A DNA stretch of 64,000 bases, taken from NCBI RefSeq assembly GCF_023630175.1, contig NZ_JALLIN010000010.1:1-64000 (forward strand). The letters run 5' to 3'. The notes under the pieces are model-generated. The model was not told where the DNA came from. It saw nothing but the letters and a program-made list of their open reading frames with translations, and did not search any database. Shown piece by piece: positions 8,278 to 24,879 of this stretch. The DNA comes from Streptomyces cellostaticus (GTDB lineage Bacteria > Actinomycetota > Actinomycetes > Streptomycetales > Streptomycetaceae). Made by a program: the position numbers and the translations under genes. Numbering within the stretch: position 1 is the stretch's first letter; the number at the start of each line of letters is the position of its first letter.

Positions 8278-8688
8278 ATGGGTGGAGGAGTCGAACGCGT
8301 ACGGCTCGACGACGGAACGGTCGTCTGGGCCAGGATCGGTGGACGGGACGACGAGGCGCCCGGCGGGGGCGGCTACTGGGACACGGGGTTCGGTGACCGC
8401 GTCGTCGACATGGCGGGCGGGCTGGCCGGCACGGTCGGTGGCGTCGTGCGCTCCTTGCGCGCCGGTCTGGACGCGCCGGCCGCGGTGGAGGTGTCCGTCA
8501 GCTTCGGAATCGAACTGACGGCGCAGTCCGGCAGCATCGTGAGCGCCATCGCGCAGGGCGGCGGCACGTCCTCCCTGACGGTGTCCCTGACCTGGACGGA
8601 ACCGGCGACGGCCGCGGACGGCGCGGATCCCGCGCCACCCGGCGGCCCGGCCGTGCCCCCGCGCCCGCCGGCCCCGGGATCCGCATGA
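8278..8688 (+). CDS. CU044_2847 / trypsin-co-occurring domain 1 (Trypco1) protein
   Basis: 136 aa. The core reads EVSVSFGIELTAQSGSIVSAIAQGG then SLTVSLTW, the pattern of the small beta-rich Trypco1 domain (FG-x-ELTA ... V-x-L-x-W), followed by a Pro/Ala-rich tail. The domain is known from comparative genomics as a partner of trypsin-like proteases in NTP-dependent conflict systems, possibly as a substrate, inhibitor or adaptor. The ATG at 8278 follows GGGGG; an alternative GTG at 8263 would add 5 residues. Its TGA overlaps the ATG of the trypsin gene (ATGA), which supports a functional pair. Confidence 0.82.
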   Translation: MGGGVERVRLDDGTVVWARIGGRDDEAPGGGGYWDTGFGDRVVDMAGGLAGTVGGVVRSLRAGLDAPAAVEVSVSFGIELTAQSGSIVSAIAQGGGTSSLTVSLTWTEPATAADGADPAPPGGPAVPPRPPAPGSA

Positions 8689-11207
8689 GCGCCTTCGACG
8701 AGATGGTGCGCCCCTCGCTCGTACGCATCGGCGCAACGGGTGACGGGTATGCAACGGACCGTGACCCGTACTGGGGATCGGGGTTCTTCGTCGCCCCTGG
8801 CTGGCTGTTGACCTGTGCCCATGTCGTGGGGAAGGGGGGAGCCGCGGTGTGCCGAGGGGAGAGCGCCTTACGCGTGACCTGGCAGGAACGCACTGCCGAA
8901 CCCGCCGCCGCCCACGCCTGGGAGGAACGCTCGGGCAGCGGGACCGCCGTGCTCCTGGCGCCCCGGCCCGGGGAACCGGAGTCGTTCCGCGACCCCTGGC
9001 CGTTCCCCGACCTCGCGCTCGTCCGGGTCGAGGGCGCGGACGACGTGCGGTGCCTCTGGCTGGGCGACCGCGAGCCCGGCGTCCGCACACCGATCGGGCT
9101 GTACGGCTGGTCCCTGCAGACCGGCGAGCTGGGCGTCCGGCACGGCACCGGCGAGCTCGTCGGGTCCGACGCCCGCGCGCTGCTGCTCGGCGGCAGCCTG
9201 CCGATCGGCGGGCTGTCCGGCGGGCCCGTGCTCGACCTGCGGCACGGCTCGGTCGTGGGCGTCGTCAAGGGCCGCCGGCGGGAGGAGGGCGTCGCCGTCC
9301 CGGTCACCGCCCTGCACGAGCTGCTGGACCGGCGCGACACCTCCGGCGTCCTGCGCGAAGTGCTGCGCGCGCACGACCGGCACCATCTCCGCCTCCTGGA
9401 CGACCCGTCGCCGTACGCGAACTGGACCACGCTGCAGGCCGGGCTGCCCGCACTCGCGCCACCCGTCTCCGGGATCACCGCGGAACTCCGCGCCCGGCTC
9501 TACGGCCACCTCGCCGAGCTGCCGCCGCCCGCCGGAGCGGGCGAGATCGTCCACCTGGTGGAGGAGGTCAAGGAGCGGGTGCGCGGCGAACGGCTGCGCT
9601 CACTGGTGCCGCGGAACGTGCGGACCTGGCGGGAGGGCGCGGCCCTGCTGCACGGACTGCGCACCCTGGACGCGGACGGCGGTGGCACGCTGGTCGATCT
9701 CGACGCCGTGCTGCTGTACGCGGCGAAGGTGGTGCGCAGGACCGCGCGGGAGCGCCCCGGCGAGATCGACCCGGCCCGGCTCGGCGCGTTCACGGACTGG
9801 CTCGGCGCGCAGGCCGGGCGGCATCGGCACTGGGCGGTGAGCGGGGCCGTCCGCGCCCTGCTGGACGGGATCGACGGCCGCGGGCCGGACGGGGATCCGG
9901 GTACGGTGACCGGCGGGGAACCGGGCGGAGCGACGGGTGGGGCCACCGCGGGAGGGCCGGGCGCCGGGCGCACCGCCGCGGTCGCACCGGCCGCTGCCGG
10001 TGCCGCTGCCGCAGCGCCCGCTCCCGTGACCGTGCCGTCCGCGGCCTCCGGACTCCAGGCCCCGGCCGCACCCTCGACCCCGGCCGTGTCCCCGATCCCA
10101 CCCGCACCCCCGATCCCGGCCGCCCCCTCCATCCCGCCCGTGATGCCGATCCCGTCCGAGCTCCGGGCGGCGCCGGAGCCCCCGTTCGTCCCCGGCCCCC
10201 GGATCGCCCCGGAACCCCCGGCCGGGACGGCCGGCACGGTGGCCACCGGCCGTACGGACGTACTCGTCAGGGTCGGTGCCGCCATGTACGGCGGGCTGCA
10301 CCCCTGGAGCGTGGAGCTGATCCACGACGGCCTCGACGTCACCCCGGTCGACGCCGACGACCGGGGGGTGCGCGTCGACGAACTCGAGGCGGCGCTGCGC
10401 GCGCCACTGGACCGTGCCCTGGACCTCGGGGACCACGGTGAGCATCTGGCCCGGATCGAGGTCTTCCTGCCCCGCAGGCTGTTCGACCTGCCGGTGGACG
10501 AGTGGCAGTTGCTGCCCGACCGCCCGGGCGCCCGCCGCGCCGACCGTGACCGGGAGCCGGGCGACGGCGGCAGCGGCCCCGGCGGCTGGGCCGGCGACGG
10601 CCACGACGAGGACGAGGACGAGGACTTCGTGGACGAGCGGTCCATGCCGCTCGGCATGCGCCGGACCGTCGTCATCCGGGACCTGCGGCGCAACGGGCGG
10701 CCCCCCTCCCCGGAGTGGCGCAGACGCTGGCGGGGCGTCGCCCGCGGACCGCTCGCGCACGAGCCGCTGCACGGCCGGGACCCGGCCGACGGCCACGTCG
10801 CCGTGGCCCGCTCGGGCGGCCGCTACCTGTACTACGGCACCCTGTCGGCGCTGGACGACACCTGTGTTCCGATCTACTGCGGTCCCGTGGCGAGCGGGGA
10901 GGGGCAGGCGGCGATGAGGGACGCCTTGATGGCGGGTCATCCGGTGGTGCTGTGGCGCCGGGACGAACACGATCACGACGAGTGCAAGGACTTCCATGAG
11001 CAGGCCGCCCACGCGGTGGGCGCCGCCCGGCACGCCGAGGGCCTGCACGAACGGGTGCGTGACCTGCGCATCCGGCTGTACGACACCGAGTCGGCCCGGG
11101 CCCGGGGCCTGCGCGGGAAACTGGCCGTGCTGTCCGATCCGCCGGACCGCCCGCCGCGCTCCGCCGGGACGATGCGGCCACCGCCGCCGGCCGCTCCCGA
11201 CGGCTGA
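8685..11207 (+). CDS. Trypsin-like serine protease fused to VMAP C-terminal domain
   Basis: 840 aa. Residues 1-230 form a chymotrypsin-fold protease with a complete catalytic triad: His46 (LLTCAHVV), Asp109 (FPDLALV) and Ser178 (GGLSGGPV). A helical region (about 245-400) resembles an effector-associated adaptor. A Pro/Ala/Ile linker (about 410-515) leads to a VMAP-C-type domain (VELIHDGLDV, IEVFLPRRLFDLPVDEW, PLGMRRTVVIRDLRR, DALMAGHPVVLWRRDEHD). VMAP means vWA-MoxR associated protein, and the MoxR and vWA-like genes do follow. No signal peptide is present, so the protease is cytosolic, unlike digestive trypsins. Inference: a protease effector held inactive until the NTPase module senses a trigger. 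It is translationally coupled to the Trypco1 gene. Confidence 0.9.
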   Translation: MSAFDEMVRPSLVRIGATGDGYATDRDPYWGSGFFVAPGWLLTCAHVVGKGGAAVCRGESALRVTWQERTAEPAAAHAWEERSGSGTAVLLAPRPGEPESFRDPWPFPDLALVRVEGADDVRCLWLGDREPGVRTPIGLYGWSLQTGELGVRHGTGELVGSDARALLLGGSLPIGGLSGGPVLDLRHGSVVGVVKGRRREEGVAVPVTALHELLDRRDTSGVLREVLRAHDRHHLRLLDDPSPYANWTTLQAGLPALAPPVSGITAELRARLYGHLAELPPPAGAGEIVHLVEEVKERVRGERLRSLVPRNVRTWREGAALLHGLRTLDADGGGTLVDLDAVLLYAAKVVRRTARERPGEIDPARLGAFTDWLGAQAGRHRHWAVSGAVRALLDGIDGRGPDGDPGTVTGGEPGGATGGATAGGPGAGRTAAVAPAAAGAAAAAPAPVTVPSAASGLQAPAAPSTPAVSPIPPAPPIPAAPSIPPVMPIPSELRAAPEPPFVPGPRIAPEPPAGTAGTVATGRTDVLVRVGAAMYGGLHPWSVELIHDGLDVTPVDADDRGVRVDELEAALRAPLDRALDLGDHGEHLARIEVFLPRRLFDLPVDEWQLLPDRPGARRADRDREPGDGGSGPGGWAGDGHDEDEDEDFVDERSMPLGMRRTVVIRDLRRNGRPPSPEWRRRWRGVARGPLAHEPLHGRDPADGHVAVARSGGRYLYYGTLSALDDTCVPIYCGPVASGEGQAAMRDALMAGHPVVLWRRDEHDHDECKDFHEQAAHAVGAARHAEGLHERVRDLRIRLYDTESARARGLRGKLAVLSDPPDRPPRSAGTMRPPPPAAPDG

Positions 11208-11432
11208 CCCGGTGGACGGTCGCCCGGGCCCGGCCGACGGCCCGCGGCCGGTCCGCCCCGGCGCATCCGGACGTCCCGTCAACCCCGGTCCCTGGCACGG
11301 GCGTTCGGAAAGCCCGGAAGCGGACGCGGGGCCGTTCGAACCCCGGCGGGCACGGCCGCCTGACGGTAGCCTCGTGGACCAGATCGGATGGCCGGCCCGC
11401 TGCATGATCACCGGAATGGGGAGGAGCCCGAG

Positions 11433-12449
11433 GTGAACGACTGGCGAATCTACTGCGGAGTGGGTCAGTCGCACGACGGCATGCGGCGGTTGCCGCCCCC
11501 GCCGCCCTGGCGCGACTTCTCCGCCTCGCGGGGTGACGGCGCGCAGGCCGGCCCCGAGGACCCCAGCAGCGCCCGCCGGCTCGGCGTCCGCCGCCGGCTG
11601 GTGGAGAGCTACGCGCCCCGGCCGGCCGAGGTGGACGCGGTCAACGCGGCGCTGTACCTGCGCCGGCCGCTGCTGGTCACCGGCAATCCGGGCACGGGCA
11701 AGTCGACCCTGGCGTACGCCATCGCCCATGAACTCGGGCTCGGCAAGGTGCTGCGCTGGCCCATCGTCAGCCGCACCGGCCTCCAGGACGGGCTCTACCG
11801 CTACGACGCCATAGGCCGTCTCCAGGACGTCCAGCTCGAGCGGGCGCGCGGGGGCGAGGGCGGCACGGCCGCGCCCGGCATCGGCTCCTACATCCGGCTC
11901 GGGCCGCTCGGCACCGCCCTGCTGCCCGCCGAGCAGCCCCGCGTGCTGCTCATCGACGAACTCGACAAGAGCGACCTCGACCTCCCCAACGACCTGCTCA
12001 ACACACTGGAGGAAGGCGAGTTCGCCATCCCGGAGCTGGAGCGGCTGGCCGACCGCGAACCCGTCGTGGAAGTACTCACCCACGACGGCGACCGGGTCGC
12101 CGTGCACGGCGGGCGGATCGCGTGCACCGCCTTCCCGATGATCGTCCTCACGTCCAACGGCGAGCGCGACTTCCCCGCCCCGCTGCTGCGGCGCTGCATC
12201 CAGCTCGAGCTCGACCCGCCCGGCGAGGAGCAGCTCACCGCGATGGTCGAGGCCCACCTCGGTACGGACGGTGTCGCCGCCGGGGCCGATCTCATCCGCA
12301 GGTTCCTGGAGCGCGAACCCGGCGAGGTGCTCGCCGCCGACCAGCTCCTCAACGCCCTGTTCCTCACCCGCCACGACCCGCGCGCGCAGAGCCTCACCCG
12401 GGAGCGGATCGCCGAGATGCTCATGCAGCCGCTCGACCGCACGAGGTGA
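11433..12449 (+). CDS. MoxR-family AAA+ ATPase
   Basis: 338 aa. Walker A GNPGTGKST is near residues 84-92, Walker B VLLIDELDKSD near 170-180, sensor 1 MIVLTSNGERDFP near 230-242, followed by an arginine-finger-like LLRRC. The helix-2 insert and ELDKSDLDLPNDLLNTLEEG are MoxR hallmarks. MoxR ATPases act as chaperone-like partners of vWA proteins; here the vWA-like protein is encoded 8 bp downstream. The GTG at 11433 follows GGGGAGGAG. A TAGCCT hexamer at 11367-11372 could be a -10, so the operon may have an internal promoter in the 225-bp gap after the protease gene. Confidence 0.9.
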   Translation: MNDWRIYCGVGQSHDGMRRLPPPPPWRDFSASRGDGAQAGPEDPSSARRLGVRRRLVESYAPRPAEVDAVNAALYLRRPLLVTGNPGTGKSTLAYAIAHELGLGKVLRWPIVSRTGLQDGLYRYDAIGRLQDVQLERARGGEGGTAAPGIGSYIRLGPLGTALLPAEQPRVLLIDELDKSDLDLPNDLLNTLEEGEFAIPELERLADREPVVEVLTHDGDRVAVHGGRIACTAFPMIVLTSNGERDFPAPLLRRCIQLELDPPGEEQLTAMVEAHLGTDGVAAGADLIRRFLEREPGEVLAADQLLNALFLTRHDPRAQSLTRERIAEMLMQPLDRTR

Positions 12450-12456
12450 GGGACGG

Positions 12457-15400
12457 ATGCCCGGGATGCACCTGGACGAGCTGATCGGCAAGCTGCGCCA
12501 GGGCGGGCTCGACCTCACCGCGGAGGACGTGGCCGACGCGGTCTGGCTGGCCGGGCGCCTCGGCCCGGCCCCGCCCCGTGACGCCCCCGGACGGCGGTCC
12601 GCACCCGGTCCGGTGGACCCGCCCGCCGTCGGACCGGACGCGTTACCCGCCGGCGCGCAAGCGGCGAGCGACGCCCCCGAGCCGCCCCGGCCCCGGACGG
12701 ACGCCCCCGCCGCCCCGGTGCCGCTGCTCACCCCCGGCCCCGCGGCGCGCCCGGACGGCGACGCCGCCGCCGTCGTGCCCGTCCGGGCGCCCGCCGCCGG
12801 CGCCCTGCCCGGACTGCTCGGCCTGGAGAAGGCGCTGCGCGCCCTCGGCCGCTACCAGGTCGCCGCCGCACCACCCCGGGACGAGCGGATCGACGAGGAG
12901 GCCACCGCCGAGCGGGCCGCCGCGAGCGGCATCCTGCTCCCGGTCACCCGGCCCGGCCGCGACCGCCGCTGCGACGTCCAACTGCTCGTGGACACCGGGC
13001 CCAGCATGGCCGTCTGGGGGCAACTGGTCGAGGAACTCCGGCAGGCCTGCCAGCAGTCCGGCGCGTTCGCCTCCGTCCGCGTCCACCACCTGCACGCCGA
13101 CGACTCCGGCGTCCTCCTCGTCGGTACGACCGCCGGTCCCGGACGGCACACCCGGCTGCGGCCGGCCGAGGAACTGCACGATCCCACCGGCCGCAGGCTC
13201 ACCTTCGTCATCAGTGACTGCGTGGGCCCGCTGTGGCGGAACGGCAGCGCGCAACGGCTGCTGCACCAGTGGTCGCGCACCGGCACGCTGGCCGTCGTCC
13301 AGCCGCTGCCGCCCCGGCTGTGGGGCCGTACCGAGCTGCCCGCCGAACCGGGCCTGCTGGTGCGCCCCGACGGGGTCGCCGCCCGGCTCGCCTTCGAGCC
13401 CGACGACGAGCCCTGGGAGGAACCCACGCCGCACGCCCGGCCGGTACCGGTGCTGCAGCCCACCCCGGAGGCCTTCGAGGTCTTCGCCCGGCTCCTCGGC
13501 GGCAGCGGCCCCGTCCGCGAGCGGGCCTGGGCGGCCCTCACCGAACCGGGCCCCGGTCCGGCGCCAGGGGGCCGCGCCGGTGCGGCCCCCGACGACGGCG
13601 ATCCGTCGTACGCCGCCGGCCCGTCGCAGTGCGACGACCCCTCGGACGTCCACGGCCGAGAGCCCGTCCACGACGAGCCGCGCAGCGACGACGAGTTGCT
13701 GCGGGCCTTCCGTGCCGGAGCCTCGCCCGGCGCCGTACGGCTGGCGGTCTACCTGGCCGCGGCCCCGCTCACCCTGCCCGTGATGCAGCTCGTCCAGCGG
13801 GCGATGCTGCCGGACACCGGGCCCATGGAGCTGGCCGAGGTGCTGCTCGGCGGGCTGCTCAGACAGCTCCCCGGCACCGCGGGACAGCCCTGCTTCGCCT
13901 ACTCGGGCCGGGTGCAGAACCTGCTGCTGTCCTCCCTCGACCAGGACACCGCCGGGCTCGTCCTCAAGCACTGCTCGGCCTACGTCGAACGGCACTTCGG
14001 CCGGGGCACCCGGAACTTCGCCGCGCTCGCCGCGGCCCGGCTCGCCGATCACGTCCCGTCCGCCGGGGCCGGTCGGGTCCCGCCGGACGCCGCCGCGCCG
14101 GAGGACGGCGGCGGGGTCGAGGCCGAGCTGTTCGCCCGTATCCCGGCCCGCGTCCTGCGCTTCTACCTGCCGGACCTCGTCACGCCCGATCCGCTCACCG
14201 AGGCCGAGCGGCTGCTCGACCAGTGGCACCAACTGCCCGACCCGGAGGTGCTGCGCCGCGCCCGTGAACAGGCCCGCGCCGCGACCGCCCCGGCCCCCGC
14301 GCTCCTCCCGGGCACCGGCGCCACCGTCCGGCCCCACCTGGTCCTCGGCCGCATCCTGCGCGCCGAGGCGGGTACGGCGGGCGCGCGTACGGCGGGACGC
14401 CGCGCCGAGCTGCTGCGCGAGGCGGTGGCCGAACTCGCCACCGCGCACGCCGCCGGCGCCGGCGGCCGCGAACATGCCGACGCGGCCCTGGAACTGGCCT
14501 CCTGCCGCCGTGAGTTGTGGAGCCTGACGGAGCAGGGCGACCAACTCGGCGCCGCCCTGGGGGTCCTGGTCGCCGAGACCGCTCCCTGGCCGCCCCTGGC
14601 CGAACGGGCACGGGCCTGGACCCGGACCGGGCACCGGGCCGGTCAGGACACCTCCGCGCGGCGCGACGGCACCGGGCCCGGCGCCCGGACCGGCCCGGAG
14701 ACGGGGGACGGGACAGCGGCTGGCGGCACGGAGCGGGCCGCCCCGGACACGGACGGGACGGCCCGCCACGGCGGGCCGGCGGACACCGGCCAGGTGCCCT
14801 GGCCCGTCACCGCCCACCGGTCCCGGCTGCTGCTGCGCGGCCGGATCCTGCTCGACCTGCGGCGCCCCGCCGCCGCCGTCGGCGAACTCCGCGAGGCCTG
14901 CGCGACGCTGGACCTGGAGCGGTCCCCCGACGCCGTACGCGGACCCGCCCTGCTCGACCTGGCGCGGGCGCTGCGGGAGGCCGGGGCCGAGGAGGGCGAG
15001 GCCCGGCAGGCGCTGCTGCGGGCCCGGCGGGCCGCCGGGGACGACCCCGATCTGCTGCTGCCCACCCTGGCCGCGCTGGCCGCCTTCCACGACGCGGCGG
15101 GCGAGGCCCCGGAGGCCGACGAGGCCTACGAGCGGGCCGTGCTGCTCGCCCCCGCCGACGGCGCCCTGCGCTGCCGGCTCCTCACCTCCTGGGGCGAGTC
15201 ACTGCTGCGGCGGGCCTCCGCGCGCGACGGCGCGCGGATCGTCGACCGGGCCGAGTACGTACTGCGCGAGGCCCTGCAGGCGCTGCCCGCCCGGTCCCCG
15301 CACCGCGGGCGACTGCAGGGCCTGGTCGGCAGCGCGCTCGCGCAGCGCTTCCGTCACCTCGGCTTCCTGCCCGACCTGTTCGAGAGCCGGCACCTGCTCG

Positions 15401-15876
15401 GCCAGGCGGTGCGCGCGGCCGCCGACGAAGCCGTACGGGCCGAGGCCTGGCTGCAGTTGGGCCGGGTGCGGCTGGAGGGCTGGCGCCGGGCCGGGGCGCC
15501 GGTGCTGATGGACGCCCTGCAGGCGTACGAGAACGCGGAGCGGGCGGCGCGGGCCGCGCACGGGGCGGATCCGGGCTCGGCGACCTCCGCCCGGGCCCGG
15601 CACGGCACCGGGGTGGTGCTGGCCCTGATGGGCCGGCCCGCCGCGGCGCGCGCGGCCTTCCAGGCCGCCGGGGAGCAGTGGCAGCGGCTGGTCGGGGCGC
15701 TGCGTCAGGTCGACTGGGCGGACGTCGAGCTGACCCGGCGGGCGGAGCCGGTGACGGGGGAGGAGCCGACGGGGGCGGTGCGGGGGCTGCCGGACGGGGA
15801 ATGGGAGCGGATCGCTCCGCCCTGGTGGCCGTGGACCGGTCAGTGGGCGAACCGGTCGGAACCTGACCGGACTTGA
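12457..15876 (+). CDS. SAV_2336 N-terminal-domain protein with vWA-like core and TPR region
   Basis: 1139 aa. A short helical N-terminal domain (MHLDELIGKLRQGGLDLTAE...) typical of SAV_2336-type proteins leads via a Pro-rich linker to a vWA-like domain with the MIDAS-type loop DTGPS at residues 179-183 and a conserved VISDCVGPLW strand. A helical middle part follows. Residues ~720-1100 are dense Ala/Leu/Arg helices consistent with tetratricopeptide repeats. The frame is open further upstream, but that stretch lies inside the MoxR gene; the ATG at 12457 with GAGGTGAGGGA is the sensible start. Expected role: the vWA partner of the MoxR ATPase, acting as scaffold or sensor. Residue limits are approximate. 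Confidence 0.85.
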   Translation: MPGMHLDELIGKLRQGGLDLTAEDVADAVWLAGRLGPAPPRDAPGRRSAPGPVDPPAVGPDALPAGAQAASDAPEPPRPRTDAPAAPVPLLTPGPAARPDGDAAAVVPVRAPAAGALPGLLGLEKALRALGRYQVAAAPPRDERIDEEATAERAAASGILLPVTRPGRDRRCDVQLLVDTGPSMAVWGQLVEELRQACQQSGAFASVRVHHLHADDSGVLLVGTTAGPGRHTRLRPAEELHDPTGRRLTFVISDCVGPLWRNGSAQRLLHQWSRTGTLAVVQPLPPRLWGRTELPAEPGLLVRPDGVAARLAFEPDDEPWEEPTPHARPVPVLQPTPEAFEVFARLLGGSGPVRERAWAALTEPGPGPAPGGRAGAAPDDGDPSYAAGPSQCDDPSDVHGREPVHDEPRSDDELLRAFRAGASPGAVRLAVYLAAAPLTLPVMQLVQRAMLPDTGPMELAEVLLGGLLRQLPGTAGQPCFAYSGRVQNLLLSSLDQDTAGLVLKHCSAYVERHFGRGTRNFAALAAARLADHVPSAGAGRVPPDAAAPEDGGGVEAELFARIPARVLRFYLPDLVTPDPLTEAERLLDQWHQLPDPEVLRRAREQARAATAPAPALLPGTGATVRPHLVLGRILRAEAGTAGARTAGRRAELLREAVAELATAHAAGAGGREHADAALELASCRRELWSLTEQGDQLGAALGVLVAETAPWPPLAERARAWTRTGHRAGQDTSARRDGTGPGARTGPETGDGTAAGGTERAAPDTDGTARHGGPADTGQVPWPVTAHRSRLLLRGRILLDLRRPAAAVGELREACATLDLERSPDAVRGPALLDLARALREAGAEEGEARQALLRARRAAGDDPDLLLPTLAALAAFHDAAGEAPEADEAYERAVLLAPADGALRCRLLTSWGESLLRRASARDGARIVDRAEYVLREALQALPARSPHRGRLQGLVGSALAQRFRHLGFLPDLFESRHLLGQAVRAAADEAVRAEAWLQLGRVRLEGWRRAGAPVLMDALQAYENAERAARAAHGADPGSATSARARHGTGVVLALMGRPAAARAAFQAAGEQWQRLVGALRQVDWADVELTRRAEPVTGEEPTGAVRGLPDGEWERIAPPWWPWTGQWANRSEPDRT

Positions 15877-15967
15877 TCTGGTCAGGGTTTCCACTTCCGG
15901 GCTGTCGGGAAGAACTGGGCAGCCATGGCGACGGAGCGGGCCGTTCGCGGGCAGGGAGGAGCCGAGT

Positions 15968-16240
15968 GTGGCGGAGCAGTGGAGCGGGGTGGCCGCCCCC
16001 GGTCGGGCTGTCGGGCGTGCCGCGAACCTGTCCGACCTCACCGACGTCGACCTGCGTACCCTGCGGCTTCTCGACGATCCCGCCCTGACCGCCGCCGTCG
16101 ACCGGGTCCTGCGGGATGCCACCGGGTGCCAGCAGGTCTGGCACAGCGGAGAGGGCGAGGGCGAGGTGCACCCGCCCGCCGTGGATATGTTTTCGGCCGG
16201 ACTCGCCGAACCCGGCCGGCTCCCGGACGAGCGGAGATGA
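15968..16240 (+). CDS. FxsA-like short peptide, possible RiPP precursor
   Basis: 90 codons, GTG start after GGGAGGAG. The segment NLSDLTDVDLRTLRLLDDPAL, then AAVDRVLRD, resembles the leader of FxSxx-COOH precursor peptides (FxsA). It does not end in Phe-x-Ser-x-x: the C-terminal 30 residues contain WHSG, two EG dipeptides and an MFSAGL stretch, then an Arg-rich end. Its TGA overlaps the ATG of the HExxH hydroxylase gene (ATGA), so the two are made together. The codons around ATGTTTTCG are unusually A/T-rich for this genome. The reading frame is plausible but short; homology is by eye only. Confidence 0.65.
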   Translation: MAEQWSGVAAPGRAVGRAANLSDLTDVDLRTLRLLDDPALTAAVDRVLRDATGCQQVWHSGEGEGEVHPPAVDMFSAGLAEPGRLPDERR

Positions 16241-17523
16241 CCCCGGCGCCGATACCCGCCGAGGACTTCGGGGCACTCGCCGGCACCCGCCCCGCCGCCC
16301 GGGGTACGCGGACACTGCGTGCCGCGATCCACGCACGTCGCATGCTGCTCCTCAAGTCCCTCCTGGTGCGCACCGACCGCCAGCGCCGACTCCTGGACCC
16401 CGCCGTGCGCCGGGACTTCGAGCGGGCCTGGGCACTGCTGACGGCCGCGGAACGGACCGGCCCCGCCGCGGTCCGTGAGGTGCTCGACTACCCGACGACC
16501 GGTGCCTGGCTGGCCGCCGCGCTCGCCGCACCCCAGGGTGCCGCGTTCGAACGCCACCTGGCCCACCTGGCCGGCGTCGCCGTCGCCGCGGCCGTCCGCG
16601 CGGGCCACCCGCCGGCCGGGACCCTGGCCGTGCCCACCGGTCTGCTCGCGCTGCCCGGCCTCGGCGTGCTGCGCTGCCCGTCGGGCCGGGTCCGGCTGGC
16701 CGGCGGGCCGGGCGGGGCGCGGATCGCGGACGACGGCGGACACACCGAGGCGGTCCTGCCGCACCCGGCGTCCCCGACCGGGCCCGGCGCGTCCCGGACC
16801 GCGGACGGGTCCGGCTGGAGCGCACTGCGCACGCTGCCCGGCGGCACCGTGCGCCTCGACGACCTCGATCCGTACCGCACCCCCCTGCCCGGCACCGGCC
16901 CGGGACCGCTGCGTGCCGCCGACCGCTGCGACTGCCCCTGGGGCACCTGGGCCCGGCGCTGGCGCCGGGCCCGCGAGCTGCTGACCGCGGTCGACGGGTG
17001 CCGCGCCGCCGAGACCGGCGCCGTACTGCGCGCCGTCGTACCGCTGGCCGCCCCGGACACCGGCGCCGCCCCGATGGGAGCCACGCTGAGGTCCGCGCCC
17101 GGCGCCGCGCTGCTCCAGCTCCCGGGCACGGCGCGGGAACTCGCCGAGTCACTGGTGCACGAGACCCACCACACCAAGCTGGCGGCGCTGGACGAACTGG
17201 TCCCGTTGTGCCGGCCGGGCAAGGGTGCGTCGCACCGGGTCGGCTGGCGCCCCGACCCCCGACCGGTACCGGCCGTGCTGCAGGGCGCGTACGCCCATCT
17301 GGCGCTCACCGACCTGTGGTGGCGGGTGCGCACCGGCGCCGGGGCGGCCCCGGCGTGGCGGCGCCGGGCGGGTGAGCGGTTCGAGGGACTGCGCGAGGAG
17401 GTGGGGCAGGCCTTGTCCCTCCTGCTGGAATCCGATGAACTTACCCCAGCGGGAAGGGAGTTCGTCCAAGGAATGGAACGCCATCACGCCGGCCTGGGTG
17501 TGACGGCCCAAAATGTGCTGTGA
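16237..17523 (+). CDS. Stand-alone aKG-HExxH-type peptide beta-hydroxylase
   Basis: 428 aa. The motif H308-E309-T-H-H312 sits in SLVHETHHTKLAALDELVPL, the metal site of the HExxH peptide-modification domain otherwise fused to the radical SAM enzyme FxsB. That domain is an iron/2-oxoglutarate beta-hydroxylase acting on ribosomal peptides in characterised FxsB-type enzymes. No CxxxCxxC radical SAM cluster is present here, so this is the free-standing form. The N-terminus (RAAIHARRMLLLKSLL) and C-terminal helices (ALTDLWWRVRTG...) fit the family. The ATG at 16237 overlaps the upstream peptide's stop. Predicted substrate: that 90-residue peptide. This is inference. Confidence 0.82.
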   Translation: MTPAPIPAEDFGALAGTRPAARGTRTLRAAIHARRMLLLKSLLVRTDRQRRLLDPAVRRDFERAWALLTAAERTGPAAVREVLDYPTTGAWLAAALAAPQGAAFERHLAHLAGVAVAAAVRAGHPPAGTLAVPTGLLALPGLGVLRCPSGRVRLAGGPGGARIADDGGHTEAVLPHPASPTGPGASRTADGSGWSALRTLPGGTVRLDDLDPYRTPLPGTGPGPLRAADRCDCPWGTWARRWRRARELLTAVDGCRAAETGAVLRAVVPLAAPDTGAAPMGATLRSAPGAALLQLPGTARELAESLVHETHHTKLAALDELVPLCRPGKGASHRVGWRPDPRPVPAVLQGAYAHLALTDLWWRVRTGAGAAPAWRRRAGERFEGLREEVGQALSLLLESDELTPAGREFVQGMERHHAGLGVTAQNVL

Positions 17524-17597: not shown

Positions 17598-20500
17598 ATG
17601 GCGGAACAGCGGCGGTCGGGCGGGGACGGGGCCCCGGCATCCGAACGCGTCCTGGTGGTCTTCCCCGGCTACCACCGGGCCTGGGCGGCCTGGATCGCCC
17701 AGTGCCTGGAGAGCCACGGGCACCAGGCCACGCTGCAACGCTGGGACCCGCCGCGCGAGACCGCGCTCGAGGACTCCCTCGCCGACCTGCTGCTGGCCTC
17801 GGGCCCGGTGCTGCTCGTCCTGGACGACTGGTTCTTCGAACTCGGACCGCGCCCGCCGGGCGAGTGGAACGACGCCCTGCGCGGCTTCGTCGCGGCGAAC
17901 GCCGACCGGTTCGCCGCCGTCAACCTCACCAACCGGTCACTGCTGCCGGCCACCGCGGTCCTCGAACCCGCAAGCCTGTGGGGCCTGAGCGAGGAGGCCG
18001 CCGAGGAGCGGCTGATGCGAAGGCTGGGCCTGGAACGCCGCCGGGTGCCGCGGCCGGTCGCCCACCGGGCCCGCTACCCCGAGAACCGGTGCGAGATCTG
18101 GGGCGAGATCCCGCGCCGCAACCCCCGCTTCACCGGCCGGGACGACCTGCTCACCGGCCTCCACCAGCAACTCGCCGACGCCGACCGGGGCGCCGCCGTG
18201 TGCACGCTGCTCGGCATGTCCGGCATCGGCAAGACCCAGCTCGCCGCCGAGTACGCGCACCGGTTCAGCACCGACTACGACGTCGTGTGGTGGGTCAACT
18301 CCGACGACCGCAACATCCAGCGCGACCGGCTCGGCGAACTCGCCGTGGAGCTCGGCCTGCGCGTCGGCAACGAACCCGGCGAGCGCATCCGGGCCGTCCG
18401 CGAGGCCCTGCGCCGCGGCGAGCCCTACGGCCGCTGGCTGCTGATCTTCGACGGCTGGGACGACACCGACGGCGTCGACACCCTGCTCCCGCAGGGCGCG
18501 GGCCACGTCCTCGTCACCTCCCGCAACCGAGGCTGGGGCGAGCACACCGACATCCTGGAGATTCCCGCGTTCCTGCGCGCCGAGTCCACCGCCTATCTGC
18601 TGCGCCGCGCGCCGCACATCAGCGCCGTCGAGGCCGACGAGGTCGCCGCCGAGTTCGGTGACGTCGCACTGCCGCTCGTCCAGGCCGCCTCCTGGCTCGG
18701 CGAGTCGCGCATGGAGGTGCCCGAGTACCTGCGCATGGTCCGCGAGCGCCGGCTGTCCACCGTGGACGAGCCCGCCACCGGTGAGGGCTTCCCGCGCTCG
18801 TCCATGACGTCCTGGTCGATACTGCTGAACCGGCTGCGCGGCGCCCAGCCGCAGACCATCGACATCCTCGGCCTGTGCACCTCGTTCGCCCCCGGGCGCA
18901 TCCCGCTCGGTCTCATCCGCGCCTACCCGCACGCCGACCTGCCCGAGCAGTTGCGCTGGATGTCCAGCGACCTCACCGCCTGGACCCGGGCCCTGGACAC
19001 CCTGGTCAACTACTCGGTGCTGACCCGGGAGACCCGCGGCCCGGTCGGCGTCGAGATGGGCCCGCACCAGGAGTCGGTCCACATGCACCGGCTGGTCCAC
19101 GACATCGTCTCCAAGCTGACCAGCGAGGACAGCCGGGTGGTGCACCGCCAGGCGGTCCGCACCCTGCTGGCCCAGGCCGACCCCGGCAACCCGCTGGACA
19201 GCCGCAACTGGCCCCGGTACGCGGAGCTGCTGCCCCACCTGGAACCCTCGGGCGCCCTGAGCAGCGCCCAGCCGCGCGTCCAGGAGACCGTGCTGAACTG
19301 CCTGCGCTACTGCTACCGCAGCGGCGAGTACAAGGGCGGTCTGGACCTGGCCCGGCGCATCCGCGACCACTGGTCCCGGATCATGGACCCGCTGGCCCAG
19401 CCCATGCTCGACCTGACCACGCAGGAGAGCAACATCCTGCGGGCCAGCGGCCGGTTCCGCGACGCCTACGAGCTGGACCGCGCCGTCCACCAGCGCCTCG
19501 GTGACGCCGAGGCGCCCTCCGAACTGGCCGAGCTGTCCACCAAGGGCGCCATGGCCGCCAGCCTGCGCCACCTGGGCCGCTACGACGACGCGCACGAGCT
19601 GCAGACCGAGGTCCTCGACGGCTACGGCCGGCTGCTCGGCCCGGACGAGGGCCCCGCCCTGATCGCCCGGCACAACCACGGCGTCGGACTGCGCCTGCTC
19701 GGCCGCTACCAGGAGGCGTACGAACTCGACCTGGACACGCTCGCCCGCCGGGACAACGTCCTGCGCGCCCGGCACATCAGCACCCTGAACTCGGGCGGCG
19801 CCGTCGCCCACGACCTGCGGTTGCTGGGCCGGTACCGGGACGCGCTGGCCCGTCAGGAGACGGTGGTCCGGCTGAGCCTGCAGGTGCTCGGCGCGCGGCA
19901 TCCGCAGACCCTGTCGGCCCGTGGCCAGCTCGTCATGTGCCGCCGCCGGGAGGGCGGCCACACCCAGGACCTGGGGCCCGAGATGGCGAGCCTCCTCGAC
20001 CAGTTCGCCCAGGTGCACGGCCGTGAGCACTACCGGACGCTGGCGTTCACCACCAACTACGGCAACTACCTGCGGGAGCACGGTGACCTCGCCCAGGCCC
20101 GGGAACTGATCGACCGGGCCGAGGCCGGCTACCGCGCACTGCTCGGCCCGGCCCACCCGGTCGCCACCGGCATGCTCTCCAACACCGGTCTCGTCATGCA
20201 GGCCGCCGGTGAACGCGCCGAGGCCCTGTCCATGTTCGAGGCGTCCTTCGCGGGCCTCACCGCCACCCTCGGCGCGGACCACCCCTGGGTCCTCGGCTGC
20301 GCCCTCAACGCGGCCAGCGCCCGCAACCTGGGCGACCGGATCACCGACGCCGTGGAGCTGAGCCGGGAGACCCTGCGCCGGGCGCGGCACACGCTGGGGC
20401 ACGAGCACCCGCTCACGCTCTCCTGCCAGGTGGCGCTGGCCGCCGACCTGCGGGCCGCGCGGGAGCACGAGGAGGCCGGAAAGCTGGAGGAGGACGGCAT

Positions 20501-20600
20501 GCTCGGCCTGACCCGCACCCTGGGCGCCCAGCACCCCCACACCATCTCGGCCCGTCAGCGGACCCGCCCCTACTGGGACTTCGAGCCCTACCTGGGCTGA
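17598..20600 (+). CDS. fxsT: FxSxx-COOH system TIR/NB-ARC/TPR protein (FxsT-like STAND NTPase)
   Basis: 1000 aa. Residues ~15-140 form a TIR-like domain (ERVLVVFPGYHRAWAAWIAQ..., VLLVLDDWFFE). An NB-ARC NTPase follows with Walker A GMSGIGKT at 206-213 and Walker B WLLIFDGWDD near 275. From ~560 to 960 there are TPRs with the kinesin-light-chain-like pattern (LGRYDDAHELQTEVLDGYGRLLG, ARELIDRAEAGYRALLG). This architecture is that of the TPR protein of FxSxx-COOH systems and of STAND switches in general: ligand binding to the TPRs triggers NTP-dependent oligomerisation. The ATG at 17598 follows GGGAGCG, 74 bp after the hydroxylase; TAGCGT about 40 bp upstream may be an internal -10. Last gene of the cluster, ended by a strong hairpin. 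Confidence 0.85.
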   Translation: MAEQRRSGGDGAPASERVLVVFPGYHRAWAAWIAQCLESHGHQATLQRWDPPRETALEDSLADLLLASGPVLLVLDDWFFELGPRPPGEWNDALRGFVAANADRFAAVNLTNRSLLPATAVLEPASLWGLSEEAAEERLMRRLGLERRRVPRPVAHRARYPENRCEIWGEIPRRNPRFTGRDDLLTGLHQQLADADRGAAVCTLLGMSGIGKTQLAAEYAHRFSTDYDVVWWVNSDDRNIQRDRLGELAVELGLRVGNEPGERIRAVREALRRGEPYGRWLLIFDGWDDTDGVDTLLPQGAGHVLVTSRNRGWGEHTDILEIPAFLRAESTAYLLRRAPHISAVEADEVAAEFGDVALPLVQAASWLGESRMEVPEYLRMVRERRLSTVDEPATGEGFPRSSMTSWSILLNRLRGAQPQTIDILGLCTSFAPGRIPLGLIRAYPHADLPEQLRWMSSDLTAWTRALDTLVNYSVLTRETRGPVGVEMGPHQESVHMHRLVHDIVSKLTSEDSRVVHRQAVRTLLAQADPGNPLDSRNWPRYAELLPHLEPSGALSSAQPRVQETVLNCLRYCYRSGEYKGGLDLARRIRDHWSRIMDPLAQPMLDLTTQESNILRASGRFRDAYELDRAVHQRLGDAEAPSELAELSTKGAMAASLRHLGRYDDAHELQTEVLDGYGRLLGPDEGPALIARHNHGVGLRLLGRYQEAYELDLDTLARRDNVLRARHISTLNSGGAVAHDLRLLGRYRDALARQETVVRLSLQVLGARHPQTLSARGQLVMCRRREGGHTQDLGPEMASLLDQFAQVHGREHYRTLAFTTNYGNYLREHGDLAQARELIDRAEAGYRALLGPAHPVATGMLSNTGLVMQAAGERAEALSMFEASFAGLTATLGADHPWVLGCALNAASARNLGDRITDAVELSRETLRRARHTLGHEHPLTLSCQVALAADLRAAREHEEAGKLEEDGMLGLTRTLGAQHPHTISARQRTRPYWDFEPYLG

Positions 20601-20752: not shown

Positions 20753-23700
20753 CTACGCCTCGAACACCTCACGCACGAGCTGCTCCTGCTCGGCCTGGTG
20801 ACGCTTCGCGGAACCCACCGCCGGGGACGAGCCGTGCGGACGCGAGATGCGCCGCAGCCGCTCGCCGGCCGGGATGTCCGCGCCGACCGCCAGGTCCAGG
20901 TGGTCGATCAGGTTGAGCGCGATGAACGGCCAGGCACCCTGGTTGGCGGGCTCCTCCTGCGTCCACAGGTACTTCTCGGCGTTCGGGTACTTGTTGACCT
21001 CCGCCTGGAGCTCCGCACCCGGCAGCGGGTACAGGCGCTCGATGCGGATGATCGCCGTGTCCACGGCGCCGCGCTTCTGCCGCTCGGCCTCGAGGTCGTA
21101 GTAGACCTTGCCGGCGCAGAAGACGACCTTGCGGACCGCCGCCGGGTCGACGGTGTTGTCGCCGATGACCGGACGGAACTCGCCCGAGGTGAACTCCTCC
21201 GCCTTCGAGGCCGCCGCCTTCAGGCGCAGCATCGACTTCGGGGTGAAGACGACCAGCGGCTTGTGGTGCGGGTTGTGCACCTGCCACCGCAGGAGGTGGA
21301 AGTAGTTCGACGGCGAGGTCGGCATCGCGACCGTCATGTTGTTCTGCGCGCAGAGCTGCAGGAAACGCTCCGGGCGGGCCGAGGAGTGGTCCGGGCCCTG
21401 GCCCTCGTAGCCGTGCGGCAGCAGCAGGGTGACGCCGGAGGTCTGGCCCCACTTCTGCTCGGCCGAGGAGATGAACTCGTCCACGACGGTCTGGGCGCCG
21501 TTGACGAAGTCGCCGAACTGGGCCTCCCACATCACCAGCGCGTCGGGACGGGCCAGCGAGTAGCCGTACTCGAAGCCCATCGCCGCGTACTCGGAGAGCA
21601 GCGAGTTGTAGACGTTCAGGCGGGCCTGGTCATCGGAGAGGTACTGCAGCGGCGTGTACTCCTCGCCGGTGCTGCGGTCGATCAGTACCGCGTGGCGCTG
21701 GCCGAAGGTGCCGCGCTGGGAGTCCTGGCCCGCGAGCCGGACCGGGGTGCCCTCCAGCAGCAGCGAGCCGACCGCGAGGGTCTCGCCCATGCCCCAGTCG
21801 ATCGTGCCGTCCTCGACCATCGACGCCCGGCGCTGGAGCTGCGGCTGCAGACGCGGGTGCACGGTGATGTGGTCGGGGACGTTGACCTGGGACTCGGCGA
21901 TCCGCTTCACGACCTCCGAGGAGATCGCGGTCGGGACCGCGACCGGGAAGCCGTCCTGCGGTGCGTGGGTGTCACCGGCGGCCGGCTGCGAGGTGGCCTC
22001 GCGGACCTCGGTGAAGACCTTCTCGAGCTGGCCCTGGTAGTCCTGCAGCGCCTGCTCGGCCTCTTCCAGCGTGATGTCGCCGCGACCGATCAGGGACTCG
22101 GTGTAGAGCTTGCGCACCGAGCGCTTCTTGTCGATCAGGTCGTACATCAGCGGCTGCGTGAAGGCCGGGTTGTCCGACTCGTTGTGACCGCGGCGGCGGT
22201 AGCAGATGAGATCGATCACCACGTCCTTGTTGAACGCCTGGCGGAACTCGAAGGCGAGCCGCGCGACGCGGACCACGGCCTCCGGGTCGTCGCCGTTCAC
22301 GTGGAAGATCGGGGCCTCGATCATGCGGGCCACGTCCGTCGCGTACATGGAGGAACGCGAGGACTCGGGGGCCGCGGTGAAGCCGACCTGGTTGTTGATG
22401 ACGATGTGGACCGTGCCGCCGGTGCGGTAGCCGCGCAGCTGCGACATGTTCAGGGTCTCGGCCACCACGCCCTGGCCCGCGAAGGCCGCGTCGCCGTGGA
22501 TCGCCACCGGCAGGACGGTGAAGTCCGTGCCGCCCTTGTTGATGATGTCCTGCTTGGCCCGCGCGACGCCCTCGAGGACCGGGTCGACGGCCTCCAGGTG
22601 CGAGGGGTTCGCGACCAGCGACACCTTGATCTGCTCGCCGTCCAGGCCGGTGAAGGTGCCCTCGGCGCCCAGGTGGTACTTCACGTCGCCGGAGCCGTGC
22701 ATCGACTTCGGGTCGAGGTTGCCCTCGAACTCGCGGAAGATCTGCGCGTAGGACTTGCCGACGATGTTGGCGAGGACGTTGAGCCGGCCGCGGTGGGCCA
22801 TGCCGATGACGACCTCGTCCAGGCGGGACTCGGCCGCCGAGTCGATGACCGCGTCCAGCAGCGGGATGACGGACTCGCCGCCCTCCAGCGAGAAGCGCTT
22901 CTGGCCGACGTACTTCGTCTGCAGGAAGGTCTCGAAGGCCTCCGCCGCGTTCAGGCGGCGCAGGATGCGGAGCTGCTCCTCGCGCTCCGGCTTGGAGTGC
23001 GGCCGCTCGACGCGGTCCTGGATCCACTTGCGCTGCTTGGGGTCCTGGATGTGCATGAACTCGATGCCGGTGGTGCGGCAGTACGAGTCGCGCAGCACAC
23101 CGAGGATGTCGCGCAGCTTCATCATGGACTTGCCGGCGAAACCGCCGACGGCGAACTCGCGCTCCAGGTCCCACAGGGTGAGGCCGTGCTCGGTGATGTC
23201 CAGGTCGGGGTGCTTGCGCTGCTGGTACTCCAGCGGGTCGGTGTCGGCCATGACGTGGCCGCGGACCCGGTAGGAGTGGATCAGCTCGAAGACGCGGGCG
23301 GCCTTGGTGACGTCGTCGTCGTGCGAGGCGTCGATGTCCTTGAGCCAGCGGACCGGCTCGTAGGGGATGCGCAGCGCCTCGAAGATGCCGTCGTAGAAGC
23401 CGTTCTCGCCGAGCAGCAGGTTCGCGACCTGGCGGAGGAACTCGCCGGAGGCGGCGCCCTGGATCACCCGGTGGTCGTAGGTCGACGTGAGCGTCATGAC
23501 CTTCGAGATGCCGAGCTTGTTCAGCGTGTCCTGGCTGGTGCCCTGGAACTCGGCCGGGTAGTCCATGGAGCCGACGCCCATGATCACGGACTGGCCGGGC
23601 ATCAGACGCGGCACGGAGTGGACGGTGCCGAGACCGCCGGGGTTGGTCAGCGAGACCGTCACGCCGGTGAAGTCGTCCATCGTCAGCTTGCCGTCGCGGG

Positions 23701-24577
23701 CGCGGCGGACGATGTCCTCGTAGGCCTGCCAGAACTCGAAGAAGTTCAGCGTCTCGGCCTTCTTGATGGCGGCCACGACGAGCTGGCGGTCGCCGTTGGG
23801 CTTCACCAGGTCGATGGCCAGGCCGAGGTTGACGTGCGGCGGCTTGACCAGGGTCGGCTTGCCGTCCTTCTCGCCGAACGCGTGGTTCATCGACGGCATG
23901 GCCTTGATGGCCTGCACCATCGCGAAGCCGATCAGGTGCGTGAAGGAGATCTTCCCGCCCCGGGCGCGCTTCAGATGGTTGTTGATGACGATGCGGTTGT
24001 CGAACAGCAGCTTCACCGGGACCGCGCGGACCGAGGTGGCCGTCGGCAGCTCGAGCGAGGCGTTCATGTTCTTCGCGACGGCGGCGGACGGGCCGCGCAG
24101 CGTCACGTACTCCGGGCCCTCGGGGGCCTCTGCGGCCGGGGCCGCCTGGGGCCTCGCCTGGGCCGGCGCCTGTGCGGGCGTCGCCGGCCTGGCCGGAGCG
24201 GCGGCGGGGGCCTTCGCCGCGGGGGCGGGAGCCGGAGCGGCGGCCGGGGCCGCGGCGGGCTTCGGGGCGGCCGCCGGCGCCTGCGCCGGAGCGGCCTGGG
24301 CCGGAGCGGCCGGCTGGGCCTGGGGAGCCTGGGTGGTGGTCCCTGCGGCCCCCGCGGCCGCAGTACCCGCCGGGGCCGACGCGGCAGGCGCGCCCGGCTT
24401 GTAGTCGGCGAAGAAGTCCCACCAGGCGCGGTCTACGGAATTCGGGTCCTGGAGGTACTGCTGATAGATCTCGTCGACGAGCCACTCGTTGGGACCGAAC
24501 GCGGCGGCGGGGTTCTTCCCGGCTCGGTCGTCGGTCTTGCTGGGGGAGCTCGAGTTACTGGGGGACTGTGGCGACAC
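20753..24577 (-). CDS. kgd: Multifunctional 2-oxoglutarate decarboxylase / dehydrogenase E1-E2 (Kgd)
   Basis: About 1274 aa. The N-terminal tag ([20 protein letters not shown]) that precedes actinobacterial Kgd is followed by a long Ala/Pro/Gln linker (residues ~60-150), an E2 succinyltransferase-like domain ending in [16 protein letters not shown], then the thiamine-diphosphate E1 ([32 protein letters not shown]). It decarboxylates 2-oxoglutarate in the TCA cycle, feeding succinyl-CoA via a lipoyl partner or succinate semialdehyde. I chose the GTG at 24577 ([11 protein letters not shown]...) because family members begin there; a GTG at 24604 would add 9 residues but has no ribosome site. Monocistronic, convergent with the conflict cluster. 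Confidence 0.95.
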
Positions 24578-24879
24578 GGCGGCAACCGCCCTCTTCCGCT
24601 TCACAAGGTGATGGACAGCGGGAATAAAGGCTACGCCTCCAAGACCGTGAAGGTCAGGTCGGGTCCGTCCATCGTCACGTAAGTCACATCAGAAATCTTG
24701 TTTCAGGGCTTGATATGGCGGGAAACAAGTGTGGTTCCGGATGTGTGAGCGGGTGTGCGGGATCGCCGGGCGGGGCCCGGTGCCGCCGGTCGGCGCGCGT
24801 CGTCGGGGCCCGTCCCTGTTCACACGTGTCCGGCTGCGCGGACGCTCGTGGATCTTGAGGTTCCGGTTCGGACCCTACG
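24578..24879. other. Intergenic region upstream of kgd, downstream of sensor kinase
   Basis: 302 bp without a credible gene. It should hold the kgd promoter (minus strand) and the terminator of the two-component operon. The only clear structure is the inverted repeat listed separately; no strong hairpin is seen next to the kinase stop. Confidence 0.6.
24697..24729. promoter_or_regulatory. Inverted repeat upstream of kgd, candidate operator
   Basis: CTTGTTTC (24697-24704) and GAAACAAG (24722-24729) form a perfect 8-bp inverted repeat spaced by 17 bp, 120 bp upstream of the kgd start, in an A/T-richer patch. GTCAC is also repeated at 24675-24688. The size suits a dimeric regulator. No regulator can be named. 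Confidence 0.4.

Follow-up and report, generated by a model that had tools for sequence, protein, structure and literature searches.

FxSxx-COOH Systems and HExxH Enzymes

Regarding the systems closest to the locus analyzed here, Kaur et al. (2020) described peptide-processing modules in VMAP systems and read the HExxH protein of these modules as a peptidase (PMC7159879). According to that account, the FxSxx type has both a radical SAM gene and a separately encoded TIR-AP-ATPase, and the RxD and acidic types carry an AP-ATPase fused to a vWA protein. As for the HExxH family itself, the rSAM-fused ChlBH is described as acting on Asp and His and as depending on a pre-installed cyclophane, and PflC/PosC are described as catalyzing Gln hydroxylation and backbone cleavage; PflC is reported to cleave its substrate oxidatively, and hydrolytically when the leader is absent (PMC12636437). 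Pro is given as a further target, that of PesO (PMC13060819). As the targets vary within the family (Asp, His, Gln and Pro), membership in the family alone cannot predict the target residue.

The locus lies in the window, namely the whole 64,000-nucleotide stretch of Streptomyces cellostaticus DNA that was analyzed. It resembles the FxSxx-COOH/FxsB (TIGR04269)/FxsT system in the leader half of its peptide, in its FxsT partner, and in a flanking gene shared with 10 of 16 FxsB-bearing relatives, but it has no FxsB in the locus or in the genome, lacks the FxSxx end, and belongs to a clade of its own. With the VMAP modules of Kaur et al., it shares an HExxH protein, a small variable peptide and an AP-ATPase with TPRs; the TIR-AP-ATPase is separate both in the FxSxx type, as outlined in PMC7159879, and in the window's clade, whereas the radical SAM gene is missing in the latter. 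PflC/PosC, BpmH and PesO are likewise presented as HExxH-family enzymes working on ribosomal peptides, but the pfl, pos and pes clusters also contain MNIO enzymes and unrelated precursors, and these enzymes are not described there as part of a VMAP/TIR-NB-ARC locus with an FxsA leader (PMC12636437, PMC13060819). No description of the FxsB-free clade was found in the open-licence literature searched. The reading preferred here, to which a probability of about 0.5 is given, is that the locus represents an FxsB-free VMAP/TIR-NB-ARC lineage with an FxsA-derived peptide, in which a separate HExxH enzyme would oxidize the linear peptide near Trp58.

The FxsA-Like Peptide Gene

The FxsA-type precursor-like peptide gene (15968..16240, forward strand) encodes 90 amino acids from a GTG start, with GGGAGGAG six bases 5′ of the start, and an ATGA overlap joins it to the ORF at 16237-17523. 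The initial annotation of this DNA described a small ORF with an FxsA-like leader half and without a Phe-x-Ser-x-x C-terminus, which overlaps a gene for a free-standing HExxH enzyme and is unaccompanied by the radical SAM gene FxsB; each of these points is borne out here and in the following sections. The FxSxx-COOH model TIGR04268 matches peptide residues 23-52 with 25.9 bits (E 8.8e-6; profile positions 2-31 of 44), so that the peptide just misses the curated cut-off of 28 bits, and 19 of 22 relatives match the same model at E ≤ 0.1. The C-terminal F-x-S-x-x is absent from the window peptide, the last residues being RLPDERR. The 90 residues hold no acidic run such as Kaur et al. (2020) give for their acidic type, and, compared with their RxD type, no RxD motif was seen in the tail by eye.

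The conserved leader segment (residues 22-57; 16031..16138, forward strand) contains the TIGR04268 match and has the consensus PDLTxVDLRTLRxMDDPxLxAAVxRVL. The Trp that follows it, Trp58 (16139..16141, forward strand), is kept in 22/22 aligned peptides, in which L24, L29, L32 and V44 are likewise invariant, and is proposed as the centre of the modified part. The remaining tail (residues 59-90; 16142..16237, forward strand) is variable, as judged from its dN/dS, a weak codon-position GC bias and low model confidence; the weak GC bias after the Trp is seen in both groups of relatives defined below. WHSG and MFSAGL, to which the initial annotation had drawn attention, are both present in the translation; within WHSG, the Trp is conserved (22/22) but HSG is not. 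The predicted peptide model is weak (pLDDT 55.6) and shows helices at residues 29-34 and 38-60, then coil.

Among the relatives, group A comprises 24 peptides, that of the window included, and group B comprises 21 loci and L129, in which the leader frame stops 7-11 residues past the Trp (10 in L129); L039, a record without the leader, was not counted. Leader dN/dS was 0.29 in the window group (4 loci), 0.54 in the L019 group (7 loci), 0.24 in B1 (5 loci), 0.33 in B2 (6 loci) and 0.33 in B3 (8 loci), with 0.59, 0.34 and 0.84 in two-locus pairs; the values are 0.22-0.59 in seven of eight comparisons, and the exception is the pair at 0.84. The corresponding tail values were 0.80 in the window group, 0.72 in the L019 group, and 0.64, 2.58 and 1.13 in B1, B2 and B3, where the tails are short (7-11 codons each), with 0.57, 0.37 and 0.21 in the two-locus pairs. 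Frame conservation by dN/dS, which had been put forward as a check on the annotated peptide, holds for the leader, and the tail values of the larger groups lie near neutrality. As homologues retain the frame and purifying selection acts on the leader, the ORF represents a real gene, beyond chance.

Absence of FxsB and History of the Clade

No FxsB over the family cut-off is present in the window genome (7.1 Mb, 98% complete), where the best match scored 24.7 bits and lies on another contig. An enzyme scan of genome_contigs revealed 33 loci, all from Streptomyces. Among 30 of the genomes behind these loci (that of L016 is not one of them), an FxsB match at E ≤ 1e-50 was absent from 22 and present in 8, in 7 of them over the cut-off. 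An FxsB acting in trans was considered and rejected, with none over the cut-off in the window genome and a match confined to those 8/30 genomes of relatives. Away from its peptide locus, L013 (genome G296, contig C68) carries an FxsB-like gene that is interrupted by a stop codon. In the wider Streptomyces sample, FxsB was found in 94/150 genomes at E ≤ 1e-60, and a match to the window enzyme in 198/295 genomes at E ≤ 1e-10, a count that includes FxsB-bearing relatives.

In one set of enzyme matches, FxsB is out of view in all loci with a best enzyme segment of at least 164 bits, and is present in each of the 22 loci below that score. Among 21 further weaker matches, FxsB is in view in 9 and not in 12, one of which comes from the window's own genome. 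The strong FxsB-free class consists of 58 loci after duplicate removal, the window included, each with at least 1.3 kb upstream in view except L122, which starts 145-178 bases before the enzyme. The FxsB-bearing loci were chosen either from FxsB matches (L077-L090) or from enzyme matches (L133-L144). In a tree of 75 enzymes (53 FxsB-free and 22 with FxsB), from which L038, L122, L129, L131 and L132 are omitted as having partial or broken enzymes, one change splits the two sets (100/99, 200/200 bootstraps).

A wider tree of 72 rows, in which the clade was thinned to 29 rows and combined with 31 rows that have FxsB and 12 weaker matches without it, also places the FxsB-free clade on one branch (100/100, 200/200 bootstraps), and the loci neighbouring this branch bear FxsB. 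The 12 weak FxsB-free rows, including L001 from the window's own genome, form a second, separate branch (99/97), so that HExxH proteins without FxsB also occur outside the window's clade; a single loss for all of them was rejected on the same ground, and the FxsB association requires two changes in this tree. When the tree is rooted at its midpoint, a root that is a choice of drawing, two losses of FxsB would be the simplest reading. With the polarity taken from this root, FxsB would most simply have been lost in the ancestor of the window's clade, and the aKG-HExxH enzyme would have been retained as a separate gene.

Gene Neighbourhood, FxsB-Partnered Peptides and Candidate Promoter

Upstream of the peptide gene, the forward strand encodes a trypsin-like peptidase with a VMAP-C domain (8685..11207; Trypsin_2 44.1 bits, VMAP-C 112.5 bits), an AAA ATPase that is labelled MoxR-type by analogy with VMAP systems (11388..12449; AAA_5 31.9 bits), and a SAV_2336 N-terminal domain protein (12484..15876; NF041121 420.2 bits). 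Downstream of the enzyme gene and on the same strand lies FxsT, the FxSxx-COOH system protein with TIR, NB-ARC and TPR domains (17598..20600; NF040586 762.4 bits, with TIR_2, NB-ARC and TPR matches). The locus ends at an antisense ORF (20753-24604), which we take by eye to be 2-oxoglutarate dehydrogenase-like (kgd). In the 33 loci, FxsT and the kgd-like ORF are each present in 33/33, the SAV_2336 protein in 32, and the MoxR and trypsin-VMAP genes in 30 each, where two records are short and L043 has neither MoxR nor trypsin-VMAP in view. By profile matches, the proteins of a VMAP-ternary conflict system with FxsT are present (trypsin-VMAP-C, AAA ATPase, SAV_2336-type and TIR-NB-ARC-TPR proteins), and the gene cluster is likely of an immune type.

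The FxsB-bearing relatives provide a view of the peptides that accompany FxsB. Ten of the 16 checked (L084, L087, L089, L090, L133, L134, L137, L141, L143 and L144) lie beside the same kgd-like ORF, at the same chromosomal site. The C-terminus of the FxsB-partnered peptides is W-G-F-x-x-[AS]-[FLM] in 13/16, with L084, L089 and L144 differing. As the strict C-terminal F-x-S-x-x occurs in 4/16 (L134, L137, L141 and L143), the FxSxx motif is loose even among FxsB partners. Five FxsB-partnered peptides tested against TIGR04268 match it nearly end to end (40.6-51.5 bits), compared with positions 2-31 for the window peptide. The peptides of L084, L087, L090, L133 and L134 also match NF041709, the model of the YxD-tail cyclophane peptide, below its cut-off, and the two peptide models thus overlap in the leader.

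Approximately 50 nucleotides before the peptide start, the element GTTTCC-N14-GGGAAG(AAC) (15887..15915, forward strand) resembles the SigB consensus GTTTAA-N12-14-GGG(A/T)A(A/T) as given in PMC8346170. In the form GTTTC-N15-GGGAAGAA (GTTTCC or GTTTCT, N14, GGGAAG), it is found with one exact spacing in 54/58 FxsB-free loci, the window included, whereas a stretch of 2.6 kb before the enzyme contains it in 0/22 FxsB loci. In a stricter form of 29 bases, its single perfect copy in the genome is that of the window. The element is a candidate SigB-family promoter specific to the FxsB-free clade.

The Free-Standing HExxH Enzyme

The ORF overlapping the peptide gene (16237..17523, forward strand) encodes an enzyme of 428 amino acids with H308, E309 and H312 in the HExxH motif. 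TIGR04267, the model of the aKG-HExxH beta-hydroxylase, matches it with 138.8 bits (cut-off 40), and NF040587, the model of the FxsBH C-terminal extension, matches residues 20-414 with 99.1 bits, below its cut-off of 225. H308, E309, H312, W337, R338, D340, R342 and H354, among other columns, are invariant in 46/46 aligned enzymes. The enzyme was modelled with a pLDDT of 90.4. Sequence comparison with the PDB up to E 10 returned 22nu (5.3e-21) and 8s5f (1.5e-6) only, and Foldseek matches at E ≤ 0.001 were 22ob and four 8s5f chains. VIA-align of the model gave Z 40.6 with SjiH-Ni (rmsd 2.8, 394 aligned) and Z 29.9 with the ChlB HExxH domain (rmsd 3.0, 311 aligned), and the next row had Z 10.2 over 88 residues. 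The enzyme shares the HExxH-domain fold and the catalytic residues with ChlBH (8s5f) and SjiH (22nu, 22ob). The invariant residues and the structure matches speak for a working aKG-HExxH enzyme of hydroxylase type. ChlBH differs in being rSAM-fused and in reportedly needing the cyclophane first (PMC12636437), whereas the window enzyme is free-standing; SjiH is presumably rSAM-fused as well, to judge solely by its PDB molecule name. The window's own genome also encodes a second HExxH protein, L001 (662 amino acids; contig C23, 919-2907, minus strand).

It is possible, though rather doubtful, that the peptide is not hydroxylated at all but binds the HExxH protein as a regulatory partner, or is a substrate that the enzyme does no more than cleave, in line with the peptidase reading of Kaur et al. 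(PMC7159879). Such a role would suit a peptide that has neither FxsB nor FxSxx and whose part past the Trp is variable and, in group B, 7-11 residues long, as would the cleavage reported for PflC, which is oxidative and, without the leader, hydrolytic (PMC12636437). However, the active-site residues are invariant in 46/46 enzymes, and the matches that stand out in the structure comparison belong to HExxH proteins of the hydroxylase type, both of which argue against a role without hydroxylation. The preferred reading, in which the enzyme would oxidize the peptide near Trp58, departs from precedent in proposing a linear, Trp-centred substrate, because ChlBH is reported to be cyclophane-dependent and to act on Asp and His (PMC12636437). 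Trp58 may also be a docking residue and not the target. The leader match below the curated cut-off, the single pair with a leader dN/dS of 0.84, the second FxsB-free branch and the peptidase reading of Kaur et al. likewise count against the preferred reading.

A Conserved DNA Element in the Tail

The FSAG of the tail is encoded by the element GTTTTCGGCCGGA (16189..16201, forward strand), which was recognized as conserved at the nucleotide level by DNA comparison across relatives. All 24/24 group A peptides have F[SP][AV] in frame and use TTT for its Phe. By comparison, TTT accounts for 0/104 Phe codons in six window genes and for 1/79 in the group A enzymes, counted as far as HExxH. A stop ahead of the FSAG position ends the leader frame of 22 relatives. 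In group B, GTTTTCGGCCGGA-like DNA, where present, falls in the +1 frame, and in locus L036 similar DNA in the leader frame spells GGFRSN, an F-x-S. Relative to the leader, the element accordingly occurs in three frames (window 16189-16201; L018, L028, L113 and L036). Several of the differences between groups (TTT/TTC, TCA/TCG and GAT/GAC) would, by eye, be third-position changes in the frame that spells F-[RQ]-[SP]-[DN], and one possible reading is that the element is a relic of the FxS motif.

A short pattern for the element matched 42/58 FxsB-free loci. It misses the group B loci L029, L032, L038, L043 and L115 and all deep loci but L036 and L129, the latter being a group B locus. The element is missing from L120, L121 and L123-L126, deep relatives in which the leader and the Trp are kept. 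In shuffled controls, the match was no better than chance in L016, L034, L098, L029, L032, L038 and L115 (p 0.27-0.94). In view of these incomplete matches and chance-level controls, the element claim rests also on side-by-side reading of the sequences. Several other roles for the element were considered and rejected. A repeated genome-wide site is contradicted by GTTTTCGGYCRGA, whose only exact match in the genome lies in the window itself; for a second SigB-type promoter, no -10 partner was seen by eye; and an RNA hairpin was judged by eye only.

The initial annotation had proposed that the 30-residue tail with WHSG and MFSAGL may be a new core sequence that is only hydroxylated, and a genuine hydroxylated core at this position is unlikely. 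Its best arguments are the in-frame F[SP][AV] in 24/24 group A peptides and the tail dN/dS of 0.21 and 0.37 in two two-locus comparisons. Against these stand the near-neutral tails in groups of four or more loci, the TTT codon in 24/24, the similar DNA that group B has off the leader frame and L036 in another one, and the six deep relatives in which leader and Trp persist without the element. FSAG was for these reasons set aside as the leading idea for the peptide core, and the conclusion is that conservation at FSAG concerns the DNA and not the peptide. Taken as a whole, the earlier interpretation is partly supported.

Translational Coupling and the Group B Interval

The ATGA coupling of peptide and enzyme genes is a feature of group A, and there is no overlap in group B. 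The small ORF might therefore be regarded as a degrading FxsA relic, retained solely for translational coupling to the enzyme, and the near-neutral tail, the disappearance of FxSxx and the ATGA coupling in group A all fit such a relic. This explanation is improbable, however, in view of the leader dN/dS of 0.22-0.59 in seven of eight comparisons, the invariant Trp, the conserved promoter motif that the peptide gene has for itself, and group B, in which the leader is kept even though the overlap is not.

In group B, the distance between leader stop and enzyme start takes 14 distinct values, all multiples of three (L018, L023-L026, L028-L033, L038, L041-L044, L112, L113, L115, L117, L119 and L129). 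Here, the enzyme was taken to start at the first xTGA in frame with the leader, this shared frame also defines group B, and the loci are related. In deep relatives, all three phases occur. The leader frame and the +1 frame of the interval are each open in 21/21 group B loci (17.0 and 17.5 expected in shuffles), and the third frame in 15/21 (17.3 expected). Neighbouring gaps shift phase where they are variable, namely downstream in B1 and B4, upstream in B3, and on both sides in group A; the control gaps downstream in B2 and B3 and upstream in B1, B2 and B4 barely vary. A coding interval was rejected, since neither codon position nor pN/pS gave a consistent signal in any frame, as was an in-frame upstream start of the enzyme, the interval having no ATG, GTG or TTG in 8/21 group B loci. 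Recoding in group B, either by a +1 shift that would give a longer, group A-like peptide or by read-through that would tie the peptide to the enzyme, is very improbable; if true, a single locus would yield an immune-linked peptide in a short and a long version.

Proposed Pathway and Implications

In the preferred reading, oxidation of a linear FxsA-derived peptide in an FxsB-free lineage, a SigB-type stress promoter would drive the peptide gene, and the conserved leader would recruit the HExxH enzyme. With Fe(II) and 2-oxoglutarate, the enzyme would oxidize the linear peptide at or beside Trp58, while the tail past Trp58 would be loosely constrained. The product may then feed the trypsin-VMAP / MoxR / SAV_2336 / FxsT module. 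In the window's clade, the ring-forming step is gone, and the leader, the hydroxylase-type enzyme and the immune-type partners persist.

If this reading is right, an FxsA-type system operates without its cyclophane-forming enzyme and keeps a hydroxylase-type enzyme for a linear peptide. As one modifying enzyme would be left, the role of the FxsA peptide in TIR-NB-ARC systems would become easier to test. The leader and the Trp would also provide a defined substrate for a domain whose characterized fused relative needs the ring first, and the search for the modified part would move from the FSAG tail to the region of Trp58.
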